From: Candidatus Zixiibacteriota bacterium
GTDB lineage: Bacteria > Zixibacteria > MSB-5A5 > DSPP01
Direction of reading: 5' to 3'
DNA: 64,000 nucleotides
NCBI GenBank assembly: GCA_022614805.1
Contig: JAKEHY010000038.1
Coordinates: forward strand, 124,001 to 188,000
Shown: piece by piece, positions 24,302 to 33,756 of the stretch
How positions within the stretch are numbered: the stretch's first letter is position 1
How the letters are laid out: each line of letters opens with the position of its first letter
The notes under the pieces: generated by a model
What the model saw: only the letters and a program-made list of their open reading frames with translations
Database searches by the model: none
Told to the model about the DNA's origin: nothing
Program-made: the position numbers and the translations under genes

Positions 24302-24925
24302 TTAACGCTCTATCAAAACCGCCCGGGCGGGGGCACCGTCGCCATCCTTGATTTTCAATGGCAGGCAGAAGAGTTCGTATTTCCCGGCCTGCACGTAGGA
24401 GAGGTTCAGTCCTTCCAAAATCACCGTGCCGGCCTTGAGGAGGGCCAAATGGGTTTGCGGGGTTTTGACGTCGAACTTTTCAATCGACAAATAATCAATG
24501 CCGACTACCTTCAGCTTGCGGGTGGCCAGGTATTCGGCCGCGGCCGTGGTCAGATAGGTGTAGCTCCTGGAAAATTCCTTCCGTTCCCACAGAAAGGAGT
24601 TTTTGGTCTTGAAAATCACCCGTTCGGCGGTGATTTTATGCTTTTGCAAAACGGGGAGGGTGATTTCATCCTCGATGCCGATGTCAATCACTTCGCACTC
24701 GCCGATCAAAGTCTCCAGCGGAATTTCGTTGGCCTTGGCCCCCTCCGCCAGCATGTGGAAGGGGGGGTCGATGTGGGTGCCGGCGTGAGTGGATAAACAG
24801 AGCCGGGAGATGTTCGGGTCACCGGTGGGGCCGACTCGGGAAAGGGGGACAATCTCCACCGGCGGGTCGCCGGGGTAAACAACCAGTTCCGGGGAGATGC
24901 GCACGGATATATCATGAATTTTCAT
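24302..24925 (-). CDS. Cyclase-family (kynurenine formamidase-like) metal hydrolase
   Basis: A 207-residue member of the Cyclase/KynB fold. The metal-binding signature HAGTHIDPPFHM is present near residue 47, with a downstream ERVIFKTKNS region and the YLTTAAAEYLATRKLKVVGIDY segment typical of the family. Members hydrolyse N-formylkynurenine, cyclic amides or similar substrates; without tryptophan catabolism genes nearby the substrate stays unknown. The ATG at 24925 has no strong ribosome site. The gene is convergent with corA. Confidence 0.88.
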   Translation of the reverse strand: MKIHDISVRISPELVVYPGDPPVEIVPLSRVGPTGDPNISRLCLSTHAGTHIDPPFHMLAEGAKANEIPLETLIGECEVIDIGIEDEITLPVLQKHKITAERVIFKTKNSFLWERKEFSRSYTYLTTAAAEYLATRKLKVVGIDYLSIEKFDVKTPQTHLALLKAGTVILEGLNLSYVQAGKYELFCLPLKIKDGDGAPARAVLIER

Positions 24926-25082
24926 ACTTCGCTCTATTTATCTATTCGGCCAAAAGCGACCATCCATAAGCCGCCCGAAAATAGGGATTTTCAGCGAAAA
25001 TGAAAATAATTTAGGGGGTCGGAAAAGAAAAACCCGCTTGTTGACGGAAACGGGGAAGTATTATCTTCCCCCCTGAACGGCT

Positions 25083-25598
25083 ATGCCTAAAAATTCGGCG
25101 AACCATCCCCTTCCGGCCATCTGGGCCCCTTGGCGGGAGGGGTTTATACTGGGGAGCAAGGAAAAGGGGTGCATCTTTTGCCGCCGTCTCCGGCGGAAAA
25201 GGGACAAAACCGATTTAATCCTTTTTCGGGGGCGAACCAGCTTCGTCATACTGAACCTCTATCCTTACACCAGCGGGCATTTGATGATTCTCCCCAACCG
25301 GCACATCGCCGCGCTTTCGGAACTGACCGCCGAAGAATCGGCGGAGATGATGGAGCTGGCGGCCCGGGCGGCGGAGGGGATGAAGCGGGCCCTGCATCCG
25401 GAAGGGTTTAATCTCGGCATGAACCTGGGGCGGGCGGCGGGGGCGGGGGTGGAGGGGCATTTGCACCTGCACGTGGTGCCCCGCTGGACGGGGGACGCCA
25501 ATTTTATGCCGGTGGTCGGAAAGACCAAAGTTTTCTCGGTGGGGTTGCGAAAAACCTATGATTTGTTATATCCGTATCTGAACGGCAGGGGAAAATGA
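25083..25598 (+). CDS. HIT-domain nucleotide hydrolase/phosphorylase
   Basis: A 171-residue histidine-triad protein. The catalytic triad is H126-L-H128-L-H130 in HLHLHVVPRW. The N-terminal CIFCRRL supplies two cysteines of the Ap4A-phosphorylase-like zinc site, and NLYPYTSGHLMILPNRH is the conserved core strand. Family members cleave dinucleoside polyphosphates or AMP conjugates; the exact substrate is not determinable. The stop overlaps the start of the HTH/aconitase-like gene by four bases (ATGA), so the two are translationally coupled, which may imply a shared role. Confidence 0.92.
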   Translation: MPKNSANHPLPAIWAPWREGFILGSKEKGCIFCRRLRRKRDKTDLILFRGRTSFVILNLYPYTSGHLMILPNRHIAALSELTAEESAEMMELAARAAEGMKRALHPEGFNLGMNLGRAAGAGVEGHLHLHVVPRWTGDANFMPVVGKTKVFSVGLRKTYDLLYPYLNGRGK

Positions 25599-27079
25599 GC
25601 AGAATTCCCAACAAAACCCAACTGGTCGAGTTGCAGAAAAAGTACAAAACCCACGAACGCATCGGCGAGGCTTTGGGGGGAGTGCCGGCCTATCTGGTTT
25701 CCTACTGGATGCGGAAAAAAAGCGTCCCCAAAATCTCCGAGCCGAAGTTTTCCCGCTACCAGATTCAATCCCTATGGGAAGAGACCGGCTCGGATGCCAA
25801 GGCGGGGGGGGGGTTGGGGATTTCCAAAGCCGCCTTTTACCGCTGGCGGCGGGTGTACGGGCTTACCGAACGGCCGAAGGTTCTAAAGCTGCACCAGCTC
25901 GATTTGGGAATCGGGTCGCCGCGGCGGGAGGCGTACCGGAAATCGACCGTTCTGGAACAGGTGCTGACGGAAAAATTGAAAGGAAAAGAGCTTCAGGTCG
26001 GGGAAAAAGTGGAGATTTTTCCCGACCGGGGGGCTGTCTGGTTTTCGCCGGAGGAGCTGCCGGACTGGCCGGAGGTGGAAAGGCCCTATCCGGTGAACCT
26101 GTTCGAGTTTTTCAATCCGCTGACCCGCTCCGGCTCCGGCACCGTCCGGGGGGAGGAGAAGATCGACGGGCGGGTTCTTTCCGCCGGCGACGGGGTTTTT
26201 CATCAGCTCCTCTTTGAGCAGCGCCTCCCCCGGCCGTTTGAACTGGTCGGCATCGCCGGCCACCATCATACCGCCCTATCCGGTTTTGGCGCTTTGGTTT
26301 TTCCGACGGAACGGGAGCGGCTGGCGGAGGGATACCCCCTTTCCCTGACGATTCCGAAGGTTTATCAGGTCGTTTTGACCGGCGAGCTTCCCTTTGGCAC
26401 AACGGTCGCCGATTTGGTTCTTTTGCTGCAAAATCGGATTCCCCCCCACTGGAACTCCCACAGTGTGGTGGAATTTCTGGGGGAGGGGGTCGATTGCCTT
26501 TCCCCCGAAGAGCGCTTCGGCCTGGCCAATCTGGCCGGGGAGCTTCATTTGCAAACCGTCCTTGTGGCCGCGCAAATGCCTGTGGAAAAAGAGGCGCGTA
26601 TCGGGGATTGGAAGGTGGAACGGCTGGAATTCGACCTGTCGAATGTTGACCCCGGCGTTTGTCATTACCCGCAGGGGCTCGTCGGCGAGCCGTTGTCCGG
26701 CCGCTTGGGCTGGCCGGTGGAGCGGGTTTTCATCGGCGGCTGCCAGAGCGGAAATTTAGAAGATTTGGAGACGGTGGCCCGGCTTTTGGAAAACCGAATG
26801 ATTGACGACGGGGTGGAGCTTTCCATCTTTCCCGCCTCCCGGACGGTTTATCGCAAGGCCTTGCGCAAAGGGGTGCTGGATACGCTGGTGGGGGCCGGCG
26901 CCTACATTTTTCCGCCGGGCAGCTCTCCGGTTTCCTGGTCGGGGAAAATCTTTGCCACGACAGACCGAGCCTGCCTGGAACATCTACACCCGCAAGACGT
27001 CTGGACCGGGTCTTTTTTGACCGGTTTGGCGGCTGCCTTGACGGGGAAGCTCACCGACCCGAGAAGTTTGTTTAGATAA
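25595..27079 (+). CDS. HTH-like domain fused to a degenerate aconitase/IPMD large-subunit domain
   Basis: A 494-residue protein. Residues 1-105 look like two helix-turn-helix units (LVELQKKYKTHERIGEALGG with LVSYWMRKK; GISKAAFYRWRRVYGLTERP). From about 110 it follows 3-isopropylmalate dehydratase/aconitase large subunits: ILTEK-like entry (VLTEKLKGKELQVGEKVEI), GHHHTALSGFGALVFP where LeuC has GDSHT..GAFGALAF, the VVLTGELPFGTTVADLVL strand, and FIGGCQSGNLEDLE where LeuC has GSCTNxRIEDL. Of the three Fe-S cysteines only C383 remains; the CxxC pair aligns with S443 and V446 (PPGSSPVS), and the GDSH aspartate is H223. A [4Fe-4S] cluster and hydro-lyase activity are therefore unlikely. A ligand-sensing DNA- or RNA-binding regulator is my inference. 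Confidence 0.75.
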   Translation: MSRIPNKTQLVELQKKYKTHERIGEALGGVPAYLVSYWMRKKSVPKISEPKFSRYQIQSLWEETGSDAKAGGGLGISKAAFYRWRRVYGLTERPKVLKLHQLDLGIGSPRREAYRKSTVLEQVLTEKLKGKELQVGEKVEIFPDRGAVWFSPEELPDWPEVERPYPVNLFEFFNPLTRSGSGTVRGEEKIDGRVLSAGDGVFHQLLFEQRLPRPFELVGIAGHHHTALSGFGALVFPTERERLAEGYPLSLTIPKVYQVVLTGELPFGTTVADLVLLLQNRIPPHWNSHSVVEFLGEGVDCLSPEERFGLANLAGELHLQTVLVAAQMPVEKEARIGDWKVERLEFDLSNVDPGVCHYPQGLVGEPLSGRLGWPVERVFIGGCQSGNLEDLETVARLLENRMIDDGVELSIFPASRTVYRKALRKGVLDTLVGAGAYIFPPGSSPVSWSGKIFATTDRACLEHLHPQDVWTGSFLTGLAAALTGKLTDPRSLFR

Positions 27080-27122: not shown

Positions 27123-27385
27123 TCATACTTCGGAAGACACCGGTTGTCCAGATGTCAGTTTCTCTTTAAGTACTGCATAAGGAGCTTTCCCGGCCAAGGA
27201 ACTATGCGGCCGGTTGAAGCTGTGGAGCCCTCCCAGACCCGTAGTTTTTGATTTAAATCTACGTCATCGGTGTAGGTCAAGAGTTGATAGAATTCGAAGC
27301 CGTCCGTCCGGTGAGAGGGTGCGACTTCGCCGTTAAGCCGGAGCGTTCGTGTTTGGATGCATCCCACTTCTATTTTAAGCCCTGT
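27123..27385 (-). pseudogene. Frameshifted C-terminal remnant of an IS481/IS3-type transposase
   Basis: On the minus strand one frame reads RLNGEVAPSHRTDGFEFYQL and then LTYTDDVDLNQKLRVWE, the characteristic end of a DDE integrase-core transposase (usual form KVERSHRTD..EFYQLLTY). After VWE the reading shifts frame and continues LHSFNRPHSSLAGKAPYAVL then KEKLTSG, the family C-terminus (YNxxRPHxxLxGKTPYE). About 85 residues remain; the catalytic D, D and most of the core are gone. No terminal inverted repeats are seen. It fills most of the 388-base gap between the HTH/aconitase and patatin genes; the rest of the gap shows no other feature. Confidence 0.8.
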
Positions 27386-27467: not shown

Positions 27468-28472
27468 ATGAAAATTCTGCCGGGAAAACAGGAGATGAAA
27501 ATAGCCCTCCTTTTGGGCGGGGGGGGGGCGCGGGGGCTGGCCCATATCGGGGTTTTGCGGGCTTTGGAAAATGCCGCCGTGCCGATTGCCGCCATCGCCG
27601 GCACCTCCCTGGGGGCCATCGTCGCCGCCGAATACAGCCGGATGCAGAATGCCGCCTGGTGCCAGAAGCTCTTCGAGCGCTTCGCCCGCTCGGAGGCCTT
27701 CAAAGCGCTGGGACTGGACCGGGTCGGCAAGGATATGCAAAGGGGGCAGGGTTTCTGGAATACCATTTTAAGCGGCATCCGTGAAAACGTTCTGATTGCC
27801 ATAGCCCTGCGGCGTCAGAGCATCGTCCCGCGCGAAAAAATAGACGCCGTTTTGTCCGAATTCGTCGCCGATGGCGAGCTCTCCGAGCTTCCCATCCCCG
27901 TCCGCATTGCGGCTTCGGACTTAAAGACCTCCCGCACGGTCTGCTTCCGTTCCGGCTCAATTCTCGGAGCCGCCCGAGCCTCCACCTCGCTGGCCGGCTA
28001 TTTCCCCCCCATCCGGGAAGACGGACACCTGCTGGTGGATGGGGAAGCCACCAGCATCCTTCCCATCGACTGCCTGGCCGGTCTGGGAATCACCCACACG
28101 CTGGCGATTGACGTTTCCGGCACCGTCTGGCCGGACTGGGAAGTCACCACCGCCCTGCAAGCCCTTCTGCGCCAGCAGGAGTTGGAGCGCTCCTATTTCC
28201 GCAGCTATTTGCACCGGCTCTGCGATCTGGTGGTGCATCCGGAGCTTCCCGGCGGTTTCTGGACCGATTTCGACCGGGTGGAGGAATTCGTGGAGGCCGG
28301 TTATAATGCGATGATAGCGGCTTTGCCCAAGCTGAAAAACTTCCGTCCCCGCCAACCCCTGGCGCATCTCGAAAACCCCCAACCACCGCCGCTCTATCTG
28401 GAATTTCCGTTTTCCAAGACAGGGGCGCTGCGGGAATCGGCTTCCCGCAAACAAGGAGAAAAAGCGGCATGA
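27468..28472 (+). CDS. Patatin-like phospholipase
   Basis: A 334-residue serine acyl hydrolase. The oxyanion loop is GGGGARGLAHIGVLRALE (17-34), the nucleophile elbow GTSLG has Ser47, and the dyad Asp is in VDGEATSILP. There is no signal peptide, so this is the cytoplasmic RssA/NTE-like type acting on membrane lipids or lysophospholipids. I start it at ATG 27468, which has a GAGG about eight bases ahead; the ATG at 27483 or 27495 would have poor spacing. It overlaps the acyl-CoA ligase by four bases, so the fatty acids released may be activated by the next enzyme. Confidence 0.92.
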   Translation: MKILPGKQEMKIALLLGGGGARGLAHIGVLRALENAAVPIAAIAGTSLGAIVAAEYSRMQNAAWCQKLFERFARSEAFKALGLDRVGKDMQRGQGFWNTILSGIRENVLIAIALRRQSIVPREKIDAVLSEFVADGELSELPIPVRIAASDLKTSRTVCFRSGSILGAARASTSLAGYFPPIREDGHLLVDGEATSILPIDCLAGLGITHTLAIDVSGTVWPDWEVTTALQALLRQQELERSYFRSYLHRLCDLVVHPELPGGFWTDFDRVEEFVEAGYNAMIAALPKLKNFRPRQPLAHLENPQPPPLYLEFPFSKTGALRESASRKQGEKAA

Positions 28473-30307
28473 GCGACAGGCCTAGAAGTTTGCCGGCGCT
28501 TTTTTCCCAGGTCTTTGTCCGTTTCTACCATCCCCGTCACCTGATGCGCAAGTATCTGGGCCGCTGGGAGGCCGCCAGCACCACCGAACTGGCCGGAAAC
28601 ATCCGGCGCATCGCCTACGGGCTGGCCGATTGGGGCCTTCAAAAAGGGGACAAGGTGGCGATTTTGTCCGCCAGCCGCCCGGAATGGGTGATGGCGGATT
28701 TGGCCATTCAGTCGCTGGGGGCTTCCTCGGTGCCGGTTTACCCGACCCAAACGCCGGAGATTGCCAGATACATCGTTGAACATAGCGAATCGCGGGCGAT
28801 TTTTGTAGAAAACGCCGAGCTCTGGAAAAAATTCGGCCCGGGTTTGGCCGATTTGAAACCCCTCGGGATTGTGGTCTTCTTTTCCAACGTGGTGCGCGAA
28901 CCGAAAGTTTTAGCCCTGCCGAGCTTGATGGAGATGGGGGATGAGTTGGCCGAGCGCCATCCCACCCTGTTTGCCGAAAAGCGGGATAGCTTGACGCCGG
29001 AAGATTTGGCCACCATCGTCTACACCAGCGGCACCACCGGCAACCCCAAGGGGGTGGAGTTGACCCACGCCAATCTCCTTTCCAATCTTTTTGCGGTCGG
29101 CCAGCGCATTCCGTTAGACCCCGGCGAGGATATCGCCTTGAGCTACCTCCCCCTCTCCCACGCCTTCGAACGGCTGGTGATTTATTACTACCTGACCAGC
29201 GGCATCCGGGTCGCCTTCGCCGGCGGAATTGAAACCTTGATGCAGGATTTGCGCGAAGTCCGGCCGACCATAGTGACCACCGTGCCGCGGCTTTTGGAAA
29301 AAGTGTACGCCGTGACGGTGGCGAAAGGAAATTCCGCCCCCTTTTTGAAACGCTTTCTGTTCCAGCAGGCGATGAGCGTCGCCGGCAAATGGAAACCGGA
29401 GATGGAGGAAAGCCGCATCTCCCGCATGCGCCTCGGGCTGGCCCGCAGTCTGGTCTTCCGCAAATGGCACGAGGCCTTTGGCGGCCGCCTGCGCTACCTT
29501 TTCACCGGCGGCGCCGCTCTGGATGCCGAGCTCGCCCGTCTTTTTATGGGCGCGGGTATCCGCGTCTTTCAGGGGTACGGTTTGACCGAGGCCTCCCCGG
29601 CCGTCGCCACCAATTGTCCCGGGATGAACAAAATCGGCACGGTGGGCAAACCGTTGGATGGAATCGAGGTGCGTATCTCCGATGACGGCGAGCTTTTCGT
29701 CCGCGGCGAAAACGTGATGCAGGGGTATCACAAGGAGCCCGCCGCCACCGCCGAAATCAAAACACCGGACGGCTGGCTCGCCACCGGCGACCTGGCCGAA
29801 CTGGACGAGGAAAGGTATTTAATCATCAAGGGGCGAAAAAAGGAGAGCTTCAAAACCAACACCGGCGATTTTGTGAATCCCTCCAAGCTCGAGCAGGCCC
29901 TGAAACAAAGCCCCTTTATCGAGGAAGCGGTGGTCACCGGCTCCGCCCGACCCGCGCCAGCGGCTTTGATTGTGCCGGACAAAAACTTTCTCAAGCAGTA
30001 TCTCGATTTCAAAGGGAATGGGCAGGTGGGCATCGACCAATTCATCCAGTCGCCGGAGTTCAAAACCCGTTTGGCCCGTAGCATTCAGAAAATCAACCAA
30101 ATCTTTGCCCGCTGGGAAAAAGTGCGCTATTTTGCCCTCGTGCCAGAGTCGTTTTCGATTGAGGGGGGGCAGCTGACCCCGACTTTGAAAGTCCGCCGCT
30201 CCATCGTGGAGGCGCGCTACCGGGATTTAATCGAGGCCGCCTACCGCGAAAAACCCCTGGAAATAGAAACCGACGTAACCGCCCCGGGCGAAAAAGTGGC
30301 TCAATGA
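28469..30307 (+). CDS. fadD: Long-chain acyl-CoA synthetase (AMP-forming)
   Basis: Activates fatty acids to acyl-CoA via acyl-AMP. The 612-residue ANL-superfamily protein has the P-loop YTSGTTGNPKGVELTH near residue 185, QGYGLTEASPAV near 370, ATGDLAELDEERYL near 436 and the hinge/lysine region GRKKESFKTNTGDFVNP. The latter resembles the long-chain FAA/FadD15-like subgroup more than E. coli FadD. It is translationally coupled to the patatin gene before it and to fadN after it by ATGA overlaps, placing it at the head of the beta-oxidation genes. Confidence 0.93.
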   Translation: MSDRPRSLPALFSQVFVRFYHPRHLMRKYLGRWEAASTTELAGNIRRIAYGLADWGLQKGDKVAILSASRPEWVMADLAIQSLGASSVPVYPTQTPEIARYIVEHSESRAIFVENAELWKKFGPGLADLKPLGIVVFFSNVVREPKVLALPSLMEMGDELAERHPTLFAEKRDSLTPEDLATIVYTSGTTGNPKGVELTHANLLSNLFAVGQRIPLDPGEDIALSYLPLSHAFERLVIYYYLTSGIRVAFAGGIETLMQDLREVRPTIVTTVPRLLEKVYAVTVAKGNSAPFLKRFLFQQAMSVAGKWKPEMEESRISRMRLGLARSLVFRKWHEAFGGRLRYLFTGGAALDAELARLFMGAGIRVFQGYGLTEASPAVATNCPGMNKIGTVGKPLDGIEVRISDDGELFVRGENVMQGYHKEPAATAEIKTPDGWLATGDLAELDEERYLIIKGRKKESFKTNTGDFVNPSKLEQALKQSPFIEEAVVTGSARPAPAALIVPDKNFLKQYLDFKGNGQVGIDQFIQSPEFKTRLARSIQKINQIFARWEKVRYFALVPESFSIEGGQLTPTLKVRRSIVEARYRDLIEAAYREKPLEIETDVTAPGEKVAQ

Positions 30308-32559
30308 AAACCCCCCGCCGGGCCGCCGTTCTGGGGGCGGGGGTGATGGGTTCGCAGCTGGCGGCCCTTCTGGCCGGCAGCGGCCTCAAAGTTGAGCTTT
30401 TTGACATTCCCGGCCCCGACCCCAAAGAGCCGGAAAAGATAACCAAGGAAGCCTTAAAAAAACTGAAGGCCCAAAAGCCCTCCCCCTTCTTTCACTCGTT
30501 CCAGTTGGAAAACATCCGCCCGGGCAGCCTGGGGCATCATCTCGAACGGCTGAAGGAGGTCGATTGGGTCTTGGAAGCGGCTCCGGAAAACCTGAAAACC
30601 AAGCAGGAACTTTTTGCCAAAATTTCCGGCTATCTGGTGGAGGACGCCATCTTCTCCTCCAACACCAGCAGCCTCTCGGTGGCCAAACTGGGGGAAGTGC
30701 TGCCGGAAAAACTTCGCCGGCGCTTTTTCATCACCCATTTCTTCAACCCCCCCCGCTACCTGCGTCTGCTGGAGCTGCTGCCCCACCCGGAGACGGATGT
30801 CAAAGCCAGCACCCCTTTTCTATGGTTTCTCGACCGGCATCTGGGGAAAAGCATCGTGCCGGTGAAGGACACCCCCGCCTTCGTGGCCAACCGGATTGGC
30901 ATCTTCGCCCTCCTAGATGCGCTGGCACTGGCGGCCGAATACAAGTTTTCTCCGTCGCAAGTTGACCATCTAACCGGCCCTTTAATCGGTCGCCCCAAAA
31001 GCGCCACCTTCCGCACAGCCGATTTGGTCGGACTGGACACGGTGATGGCGGTGGTTAAAATCGTCCGCGAAGGGGCTGCCGACGACCCACGCATCGACCG
31101 CTTCACCCCGCCGCCGATTTTGCAGGCGCTTTTCTCCTCCGGAAAGCTGGGAGAAAAAACCGGCGCCGGTTTCTACCGCAAGCAAGGGGACAAAATTGAA
31201 GAAGCGGATGAGAATCTGAATTATGCCGAAAGAAAAAGGCTGCAAACATCCCTTCTGGCCCAGGCCGGCGCCGAAGAGGACTTGGTTAAACGGGTGCGAA
31301 TGCTTTTCGCCGCGCTGGACGACCCGGGGGGAGCTTTCGTTTCGCGCCATCTAATATCCGTGGCCGGCTATGCCGCCGCGCTGGAGGGAAAAATCTGCGA
31401 CCGGCCGGGGCAAATCGACGATGCCTTGCGCTGGGGCTTCGGCTGGCAGATGGGGCCTTTGGAGCTGGCCAAAGCGGTCAACTGCGACCTTTTAAGCAAG
31501 GCCGCTTCAAAATTCTCCCTGCCGGCTCCAACCCTTCCCGAAAAAATCGAATCGGGTGAGCCCGGGCCTATTCTGCTTCCCGCAAAACCGGAAAAAGTGG
31601 TGGCCGAAAACAAGGAAGCTGCGCTTTTGGACGCCGGCAACGGAGTCGCCGTTCTGGTTTTTCATTCCAAGCTGAACGTCATCGGCGCCGGAATCCTAAG
31701 TCTTGCCCAGCAGGCGCTTGAGAAAGTCAAAAGCGATTTCGATGCTTTGGTAATAGCCAACGACCCGCAGGTGGAGGCTTTTTCCGCTGGCGCCAATCTG
31801 GCCTGGCTTTTGATGGCCGCCTCGGAAGGGGATTTCGACGAAATTGCCCTCATGATAAAAAAATTCCAATCCGTAACCGAGGGGATGAGCAACGCCGCCT
31901 TCCCGGTCGTCGCCGCTCCCTTTGGCCTGACCCTGGGCGGCGGCTGTGAAATCTGTTTGGCGGCGACCCGAAGGGTGGCCCATCGTGAGCTTTATATCGG
32001 CCTGGTCGAAACCGGGGTGGGCCTGCTTCCGGCCGGAGGGGGAACGACGCGGATGGCCGAACAAATTGCCCGCTGGGCCAAGGGCGGAATGCTTCTGCCC
32101 CATTTGAAAACCGTTTTCGAAAACGTCGGCCTGGCCAAAGTCAGCACGAGTGCGGATGAAGCTTTGGCAATGGGTTATCTGCAGCCGGAGGATTTGGTGG
32201 TTCCCAACCGCGGCCGCCTCGTCGCCGCGGCCCTCTCCCAAGCCCGGCTTCTGGCCGATGCAGGAACCCCTGCAATAGCTTCCGAAAAAATCCGGGTGGC
32301 CGGCAAAAACGGCCTGGCTGCCATCGAAACGTTTTTGTACTTGATGCGTGAAAGCAAAATGATAACTGAACACGATGTCACCGTCGGCCGCTCGCTGGCA
32401 AAGGTTTTATGCGGCGGCGAAGTGCCGGGTGAACCGGAAGTCCCCCGCCGGCACCTGCTCGATTCGGAGGCGGAAGAATTTTTGCGCCTGGTCGGAATGC
32501 GCCAAACGCAGGAGCGGATGGCGCATTTGTTGAAAACCGGAAAACCGTTGAGAAATTAA
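30304..32559 (+). CDS. fadN: 3-hydroxyacyl-CoA dehydrogenase / enoyl-CoA hydratase fusion
   Basis: Bifunctional beta-oxidation enzyme of 751 residues. The dehydrogenase comes first: the NAD motif GAGVMGSQLAALLAGSGLKV is at about 10-29, the catalytic His is in FITHFFNPPRYL, and the C-terminal dehydrogenase domains follow. A crotonase domain closes the protein, with an oxyanion region SAGANLAWLL, GGGCEICLAATRR and ETGVGLLPAGGGTTRM. This order (dehydrogenase then hydratase) is that of Bacillus FadN and opposite to E. coli FadB/FadJ. The fadN-fadA-fadE gene order also matches Bacillus. Confidence 0.94.
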   Translation: MKTPRRAAVLGAGVMGSQLAALLAGSGLKVELFDIPGPDPKEPEKITKEALKKLKAQKPSPFFHSFQLENIRPGSLGHHLERLKEVDWVLEAAPENLKTKQELFAKISGYLVEDAIFSSNTSSLSVAKLGEVLPEKLRRRFFITHFFNPPRYLRLLELLPHPETDVKASTPFLWFLDRHLGKSIVPVKDTPAFVANRIGIFALLDALALAAEYKFSPSQVDHLTGPLIGRPKSATFRTADLVGLDTVMAVVKIVREGAADDPRIDRFTPPPILQALFSSGKLGEKTGAGFYRKQGDKIEEADENLNYAERKRLQTSLLAQAGAEEDLVKRVRMLFAALDDPGGAFVSRHLISVAGYAAALEGKICDRPGQIDDALRWGFGWQMGPLELAKAVNCDLLSKAASKFSLPAPTLPEKIESGEPGPILLPAKPEKVVAENKEAALLDAGNGVAVLVFHSKLNVIGAGILSLAQQALEKVKSDFDALVIANDPQVEAFSAGANLAWLLMAASEGDFDEIALMIKKFQSVTEGMSNAAFPVVAAPFGLTLGGGCEICLAATRRVAHRELYIGLVETGVGLLPAGGGTTRMAEQIARWAKGGMLLPHLKTVFENVGLAKVSTSADEALAMGYLQPEDLVVPNRGRLVAAALSQARLLADAGTPAIASEKIRVAGKNGLAAIETFLYLMRESKMITEHDVTVGRSLAKVLCGGEVPGEPEVPRRHLLDSEAEEFLRLVGMRQTQERMAHLLKTGKPLRN

Positions 32560-32574
32560 AATCGTCAAAAAAAA

Positions 32575-33756
32575 ATGAAGGAAGCCGTCATCGTTGCCGC
32601 CAAAAGAACCCCGGTAGGAAAGGGTTTTACCGGCTCTTTGGCCCAGGTGCATCCCGTCCACCTCGGCACCGTTCCGATTAAAGCGGTTGCCGGCGCCCTT
32701 CCGGGGTTCGACCCAAGGCTGGTGGACGAATTAATCGTCGGCTGTGCGATGCCGGAAGGGGAACAGGGGTTGAACGTAGCCCGGCTCATCGGTTTCGCTG
32801 CAGAACTGCCGGATGGCGTTCCGGCTATGACCGTGAACCGGTTCTGCGCCTCCGGGCTGGAGGTAATCAGCCTGGCGGCCAACCGAATTCACCTTGGGGA
32901 GGCAAATCTAATCATAGCCGCCGGGGTGGAATCGATGAGCGCCGTGCCGATGGGGGGGAACAAAATTGCGCCGGAGCTCACTTTGGTGCGTGCCCGTCCG
33001 GAATCCTACATCTCGATGGGGTTGACGGCGGAGAACCTGGCCGAAAAGTACAAGGTGAGCCGCCAGGAGCAGGACCAGTTTTCCCTCGAAAGTCACCGCA
33101 AGGCGGTTGCCGCAATTGACAACGGGGCCTTCGCCGACCAGATTGCCCCGGTGGAAATCCTCCGGCAAAATCCCGGTGAAAAAGGGAAGATTGAAACCTC
33201 GAAGTCGACTTTTTCCACCGACGAAGGCCCCCGGCGGGATACCAGCTTGGAAGCTTTGGCCAAACTGGTGCCGTCATTTAAAAAGGAGGGCACTGTAACG
33301 GCCGGCAATTCCAGCCAGATTTCGGACGCCGCCGCCGCGGTGGTTTTGGCGGAAGCGGAATTCGCCCGGAAACAGAGCTGGAAGCCGCTAGCCCGTTTCG
33401 TGGGCTACGCCACCGCCGGGGTGGCGCCGGAGCTTATGGGCATCGGTCCGGTCGAGGCCGTTCCAAAGCTGTTGAAGCGAACCGGCCTTTCTCTTTCGAC
33501 CCTCGACATCATTTTGCTGAACGAGGCTTTCGCCGCCCAGACCCTGGCGGTCATCCGCCAGCTCGGTCTGGATATAAAAAAGGTCAACCCGAACGGCGGC
33601 GCCATCGCCCTGGGGCATCCCTTGGGTGCGACCGGAGCCAAGCTGACGGTCGAGTTAACGTATAAACTTTTGCGGTCGAACAAAAGATATGGAATGGTGA
33701 CGATGTGCGTGGGGGGTGGAATGGGGGCCGCCGGAATTTTTGAAAGGATTTCGTAA
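32575..33756 (+). CDS. fadA: Acetyl-CoA C-acyltransferase (3-ketoacyl-CoA thiolase)
   Basis: Final thiolytic step of beta-oxidation. The 393-residue thiolase has the nucleophile Cys91 in [13 protein letters not shown], the His in [17 protein letters not shown] and the second Cys in [17 protein letters not shown]. Length and the absence of extra loops fit the tetrameric/dimeric thiolase group. The ATG at 32575 is 15 bases after fadN, with only a weak ribosome site in an A-rich spacer. It probably supplies acetyl-CoA together with the neighbouring FadN and FadE. Confidence 0.95.

Follow-up and report, generated by a model that had tools for sequence, protein, structure and literature searches.

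The locus analysed here raises the question of what a protein does when a helix-turn-helix (HTH) head is joined to an aconitase fold with a lost active site. It lies in the window, a stretch of 64,000 nucleotides from a Candidatus Zixiibacteriota genome. We propose that the product is a regulatory pseudoenzyme, with a probability of roughly two in three. More precisely, it would be a DNA-binding regulator with a former enzyme as its sensor or oligomerisation body. This proposal comes from the basic tandem HTH head, its strict conservation, and the body derived from an enzyme. Table 1 presents the features of the locus.

Table 1. Coordinates of the fusion gene, its parts and the adjoining elements in the window.
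Feature	Position	Strand	Evidence or remark
HTH-aconitase fusion protein, 494 aa, ATG start (P0001)	25595..27079	+	ORF, Pfam, NCBIfam, AlphaFold2
HTH unit 1, residues 5-47, helices 7-17, 20-26, 32-41	25607..25735	+	AlphaFold2; superposition on NtrC4/GcrA/Mos1 HTH; phylum-wide conservation
HTH unit 2, residues 51-91, helices 54-64, 67-74, 78-88	25745..25867	+	AlphaFold2; superposition on Fis HTH
Linker, residues 92-115, conserved P94, L97, Q101	25868..25939	+	Low pLDDT at 99-111
LeuC/aconitase-fold domain, residues 116-494, catalytically dead by sequence	25940..27076	+	Z 40.7 to 4kp1
GHHH, residues 222-225; TDSH in intact relatives	26258..26269	+	Alignment
C383, sole retained cluster cysteine; GGCQSG for GSCTNG	26741..26743	+	Alignment
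S443 to V446, in place of the GCGPC Cys-x-x-Cys	26921..26932	+	Alignment
HIT-family nucleotide hydrolase/transferase, 171 aa	25083..25598	+	Pfam; closest solved relatives 6af2, 3ano
GAAAATAGGGATTTTC inverted repeat, candidate operator (weak)	24977..24992		About 91 bp upstream of the HIT start

A preliminary description had proposed a fusion of paired HTH units with a LeuC/aconitase large subunit, and both halves were recovered. Profile searches against the aconitase and LeuC families matched Pfam PF00330 (E 1.6e-27) and NF001614 (PRK00402; E 5e-34, residues 197-447). By sequence, the protein also matched the PDB entries 4kp2 (E 2e-21) and 4kp1 (E 2e-17). The full-length AlphaFold2 model (mean pLDDT 87) consists of two three-helix units, followed by an aconitase fold over residues 116-494. 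The best solved structural match is 4kp1, the large subunit of the M. jannaschii isopropylmalate isomerase, with 371 residues superposed at 2.8 Å. This architecture is not a product of chance, because 120 of the phylum's 132 genomes share it, and in 109 of 110 loci it adjoins a HIT gene.

The helices of the head span residues 7-41 and 54-88, and modelling the head alone with AlphaFold2 gave the same fold. Each unit superposes on the HTH of Fis, NtrC4, GcrA or Mos1 over 42-44 residues, at 1.4-2.7 Å and with Z values of 4.7-5.7. For unit 2 and Fis, the fit covers 44 residues at 1.8 Å. These Z values are low (5.7 at best), as expected at about 45 residues, and the top rows are DNA-binding HTH units. 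The head expected of an enzyme-derived regulator is present by fold only, and the Pfam HTH families gave weak matches below their cut-offs. Compared with the PDB by sequence, it showed chance matches only. Likewise, Foldseek with the head alone gave no match under E 0.3. The net charge of the head is +12 (family median +11), and that of the aconitase half of the window protein is -13.

HTH units can also bind RNA or protein, and aconitases are the textbook enzymes that moonlight as RNA regulators. The head might then bind RNA, or a ribosomal or protein target. The protein would act post-transcriptionally or as a structural factor, in the manner of IRP1 and AcnB. We consider this unlikely. It is true that aconitases became RNA-binding repeatedly, that IRP1 structures match the model at Z 17-25, and that the head is basic. 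Nevertheless, the head resembles an HTH, and the structures nearest to it are DNA-binding units. IRP1 and AcnB, for their part, bind RNA with their aconitase domains and not with an added head.

The aconitase half presents substitutions at the residues that define the enzyme. C383, S443 and V446 all stand where they had been numbered before, and the GDSH motif does read GHHH, at G222-H223-H224-H225. Alignment with intact relatives upholds that the window protein has lost residues of catalysis and of cluster binding. Instead of three cysteines for a [4Fe-4S] cluster, it has C383, S443 and V446. TDSH and NRNFKGRMG read AGHHH and DRACL--EH. The NF001614 score is 117.6 bits, under the curated cut-off of 385. 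The protein carries an enzyme-fold domain without catalytic residues, as is expected of a regulator derived from an enzyme.

Some of these substitutions could be tolerated, or other cysteines could bind a cluster. The fusion would then still be a hydro-lyase or an Fe-S protein here, and the HTH merely a stabilising or interaction domain. Intact fused members with an adjacent LeuD exist, and the aconitase half is under purifying selection, which would agree with an enzyme. However, two of the three ligands, TDSH and the substrate loop are lost, and only 26% of the active-site columns are kept in family f1. Of the cysteines in the window protein (301, 356, 383 and 460), only 383 and 460 are also present in the translation of the sister species. 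The genome also encodes a separate LeuC, a separate LeuD and two one-chain aconitases, so a fused enzyme would be redundant, and no LeuD adjoins the gene. For these reasons, a persisting enzyme seems quite improbable.

The distribution of the family was obtained with an N-terminal-domain profile search. The gene is present in 76 of 78 high-quality genomes, essentially as one copy per genome. The member set comprises 110 distinct loci, of which 105 are complete. All named records of the family belong to Ca. Zixiibacteriota, Zixibacteria or GN15, or carry titles that are unspecific or probably wrong ('bacterium', 'Calditrichota', 'FCB group'). The head was not found outside Zixibacteria in plasmids, phages or genome contigs, the contig scan consisting of two peptide patterns that distant relatives could escape. 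Within the searched data, the family is confined to Zixibacteria. Among the genomes where the fusion gene was not detected, G087 and G088 show solo LeuC genes only. In G006, an intact LeuC is cut at the contig start, and its N-terminus is not visible.

A decaying gene, that is, an enzyme becoming a pseudogene and retained by chance, would explain the erosion of the active site in many lineages. This explanation is hardly credible. It is contradicted by the frames free of stops in all 105 complete members, by the presence of the gene in nearly every high-quality genome, by dN/dS values of 0.05-0.19 in pairs of decayed members, and by an HTH that is almost unchanged.

Whether the loss of cysteines is conserved had been put forward as a check, and homologues with all three had been named as evidence against a regulator. 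The loss holds for most members, but it is not family-wide. The three cluster cysteines are conserved in 20 of the 105 members, and the remainder show widely varied substitutions. The complete active site (TDSH, SCTNG, GCGPC and TTNRNFKGRMG) is present in 10 of the 105, from families f4, f10, f13 and f16. The objection is thus valid in part, and the idea of a regulator survives it. The members with three cysteines indicate that the fusion was probably an enzyme at first and lost this function in several lineages.

Two groups of these relatives deserve mention in their own right. L073, L074, L077, L082, L136, L137, L158 and L165 have an HTH-LeuC with a complete active site, and an adjacent LeuD where the flank allows. 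From their sequences, they are probable bifunctional enzyme/DNA-binding proteins. L084, L096, L160, L094, L095 and L068 are intermediates with three cluster cysteines and without TDSH. They are possibly Fe-S sensors without catalysis.

The small subunit tells of the same decay. LeuD lies directly downstream in all nine intact members with enough flank, and it conserves FGCGSSRE. Its scores are 318-332 bits in eight full frames, and a ninth, truncated frame scores less. Seven members with partial or full decay still have a LeuD relic in the same place, with 70-125 bits and the motif lost. The exception is L017, with an intact-looking LeuD. No LeuD was found downstream of the window locus, and it is likewise absent in the remaining loci. 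An eroded or missing LeuD accompanies the loss of the active site, which means that both subunits decayed together. By gene order, the ancestral unit is HIT - [HTH::LeuC] - LeuD. The former hydro-lyase of the preliminary description is thereby supported, as the relatives present an intact ancestor with its LeuD partner.

In a tree of the intact and three-cysteine members, the aconitase domains of the fusions group in a single clade with support 1.0. Its sister is an unfused LeuC clade of f5, f7 and f12. In a phylum-wide search, unfused LeuC of the sister type turned up in 7 genomes and intact fused genes in 10, and no genome had both. This pattern is consistent with an enzyme role held by either the fused or the free gene.

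We counted losses under the Dollo criterion. For the intact state, the HTH+HIT tree requires at least 4 losses, but the long-branched aconitase tree may need just one. The three-cysteine set requires 11-19 losses. The alignment clearly shows repeated cysteine loss within f11, f14, f19 and f9. These counts suggest that the HTH-fused hydro-lyase became a pseudoenzyme many times, with an uncertain minimum number of full active-site losses, as the topologies have weak nodes.

Two roles for the intact fused enzyme were rejected. It is not the only aconitase of the intact genomes: several have another LeuC/LeuD pair whose neighbours, identified by eye, are genes for citrate synthase and/or isocitrate dehydrogenase. 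Nor is leucine synthesis supported. LeuA_dimer is absent in 29 of 30 genomes, with one sub-threshold match, and no leuA or leuB stands beside the intact fused genes.

Clusters of LeuA-like, LeuC, LeuD and LeuB genes exist (L249-L251), although none of the 30 Zixibacteria genomes passes the curated cut-off of LeuA_dimer. By their gene content, the clusters would form an unusual leucine- or homocitrate-type pathway. In L232, L236 and L239, unfused LeuC/LeuD pairs lie beside citrate synthase-like and/or isocitrate dehydrogenase-like genes (by eye). These genomes have no one-chain aconitase above the NF005558 cut-off, so the pair is probably a two-subunit aconitase.

We compared the selection on the two halves of the protein. 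Among intact members, the mean pairwise identity is 67% in the HTH and 75% in the aconitase half. Among decayed members, it is 69% and 33%. It means that the loss of the enzyme freed the aconitase half, and not the head. The columns invariant in intact members point the same way: decayed members keep 87% of them in the HTH, 47% in the rest of the aconitase half and 24% in the active site. An alignment of 86 sequences has 20 invariant positions, and all but three of them (17) are in the HTH and linker. This conservation of the HTH over the aconitase half indicates that the HTH is the function kept by selection.

Against the sister species (80% identical), dN/dS is 0.086 in the HTH and 0.165 in the aconitase half, and neither is relaxed. 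Other decayed pairs show values of 0.007-0.08 and 0.05-0.19, respectively. All these ratios are rough, with dS saturated or near saturation in many pairs. Judged by these ratios, both halves are under purifying selection. The aconitase half is looser than an enzyme would be, but it is not free.

The aconitase half might be a passive scaffold or dimerisation body without a ligand. Regulation would then come from the HIT partner or from the expression level. The active-site positions are the fastest to go, as the percentages above show, and the pocket varies among lineages. Decayed members do not conserve the old active-site positions in any special way, so a shared ligand of the old pocket is not supported. 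On the other side are the purifying selection and the well-kept core, and the ligands sensed could differ by lineage. We regard a body without any ligand as doubtful, although a serious alternative to a body that would sense an effector.

The other part of the proposed regulator system is the HIT gene, always directly upstream and on the same strand where it is adjacent. The one exception, L159, has an aberrant N-terminus, perhaps from a frameshifted assembly. In the window, the HIT stop overlaps the start of the fusion gene by 4 bases (ATGA at 25595-25598), and exactly this overlap recurs in 52 of 109 loci. The H-x-H-x-H triad is intact in all 109 partners. The HIT protein of the window has the HIT domain (PF01230, E 3e-17) and this triad. 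Its residues 37-162 match 6af2 and the Ap4A phosphorylase 3ano with E of about 1e-35. It resembles the Ap4A phosphorylase-like HIT proteins (PDB 3ano, 3wo5 and 6af2) in sequence and in the conserved triad. However, it differs from them in its score of 158.8 bits for NF052622 (HIT Ap4A phosphorylase / ATP adenylyltransferase), under the cut-off of 290. The functional pair suggested earlier from the overlap alone fared well in the co-occurrence survey, with a linkage that is nearly absolute. On the evidence of gene order, HIT and the fusion gene are a true conserved pair across the phylum.

A regulator of its own operon might have an operator upstream of the HIT gene. GAAAATAGGGATTTTC is a perfect inverted repeat of 16 bp, identical in the sister species and so conserved in two f1 species. 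The form GAAAATN4ATTTTC has 2 sites in the whole genome, and 0.06 are expected per window. A loose version, AAAATn2-6ATTTT, chosen after looking, occurs in 9 of 94 loci (2.2 expected; 0 of 300 shuffles). GAAAATAGGGATTTTC is itself loosely conserved in three of the four f16 loci. No phylum-wide operator was found: 8-mers and 4+4 dyads upstream of the 94 loci gave only A+T-rich words. GAAAATAGGGATTTTC is thus a weak candidate for an operator. It lies between a divergent cyclase-like gene (24302-24925, minus strand) and the HIT gene, and it could regulate either.

On the other side of the fusion gene, a 70-aa frame (27155-27367, minus strand) resembles, by eye, the C-terminal remnant of an integrase-core transposase. 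Behind a patatin-like gene at 27468, a fatty acid oxidation cluster extends over 28469-33756. By eye, it comprises an acyl-CoA ligase, a 3-hydroxyacyl-CoA dehydrogenase and a thiolase.

The protein shares parts with three known systems. With the archaeal-type large subunit of isopropylmalate isomerase or homoaconitase (MJ0499 and MJ1003; 4kp1, 4nqy and 4kp2), it shares the fold over residues 116-494. It differs in the 105-residue tandem HTH, in its score (118 bits vs 385), and in lacking the ligands, the catalytic residues and LeuD. The intact fused relatives score about 580-600 bits, as NF001614-type enzymes, and have LeuD.

With IRP1 and AcnB, it would share an aconitase fold in gene regulation; these keep enzyme activity or alternate with it, in contrast to the separate HTH head and dead enzyme found here. 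E. coli AcnB binds its own mRNA (PMC4150767).

The third comparison is with the MocR/GabR regulators, such as EnuR, with a winged HTH and an aminotransferase-fold domain (PMC8739950). In both, an HTH head is joined to the fold of a metabolic enzyme without enzymatic activity. This fold is the effector or oligomerisation domain in MocR/GabR and would be so in our case, where DNA binding is predicted. Nevertheless, the fold is that of aconitase and not PLP fold type I. The head is a tandem of small HTH units and not a GntR winged HTH, the ancestry is Fe-S and not PLP, and a HIT partner gene is present. The protein is not a member of MocR/GabR proper, as Pfam gives aconitase and no aminotransferase or GntR domain. 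No description of an HTH-aconitase regulator was found in the open-access literature, which is not proof of absence.

We infer the following history and mechanism. In the ancestor of Zixibacteria, a tandem-HTH head would have joined the large subunit of a LeuC/LeuD-type hydro-lyase with two subunits. By sequence, the enzyme is still intact in the few families with a complete active site. Most lineages, including that of the window genome, lost the Fe-S ligands and substrate-binding residues, and LeuD eroded and then went, while the HTH stayed strongly constrained. The HTH pair would bind DNA, perhaps in the control region of its own operon. The former aconitase domain would be a dimerisation and/or effector-binding body that alters DNA binding. 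The translationally coupled HIT enzyme, a relative of Ap4A phosphorylase, may make or remove a nucleotide signal, or act in the same response.

A wider proposal is tentative, and we hold it at clearly less than even odds. The family would be phylum-wide, single-copy transcription factors of aconitase fold, derived from a bifunctional HTH-hydro-lyase in a series of stages between enzyme and regulator that recurs in parallel. Intact members would be enzyme and regulator at once, with the Fe-S state or the substrate controlling DNA binding. Intermediates that have three cysteines and lack the catalytic residues would be cluster sensors. Decayed members would be cluster-free regulators coupled to HIT and a dinucleotide signal.

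One phylum holds all the stages, from the intact fused enzyme with its small subunit, through intermediates with three cysteines, to dead enzymes whose HTH is unchanged. The transition from enzyme to regulator can thus be tested directly with extant proteins. For an almost uncultured phylum, this near-universal gene would offer, through its HIT partner, a first lead to its signalling.
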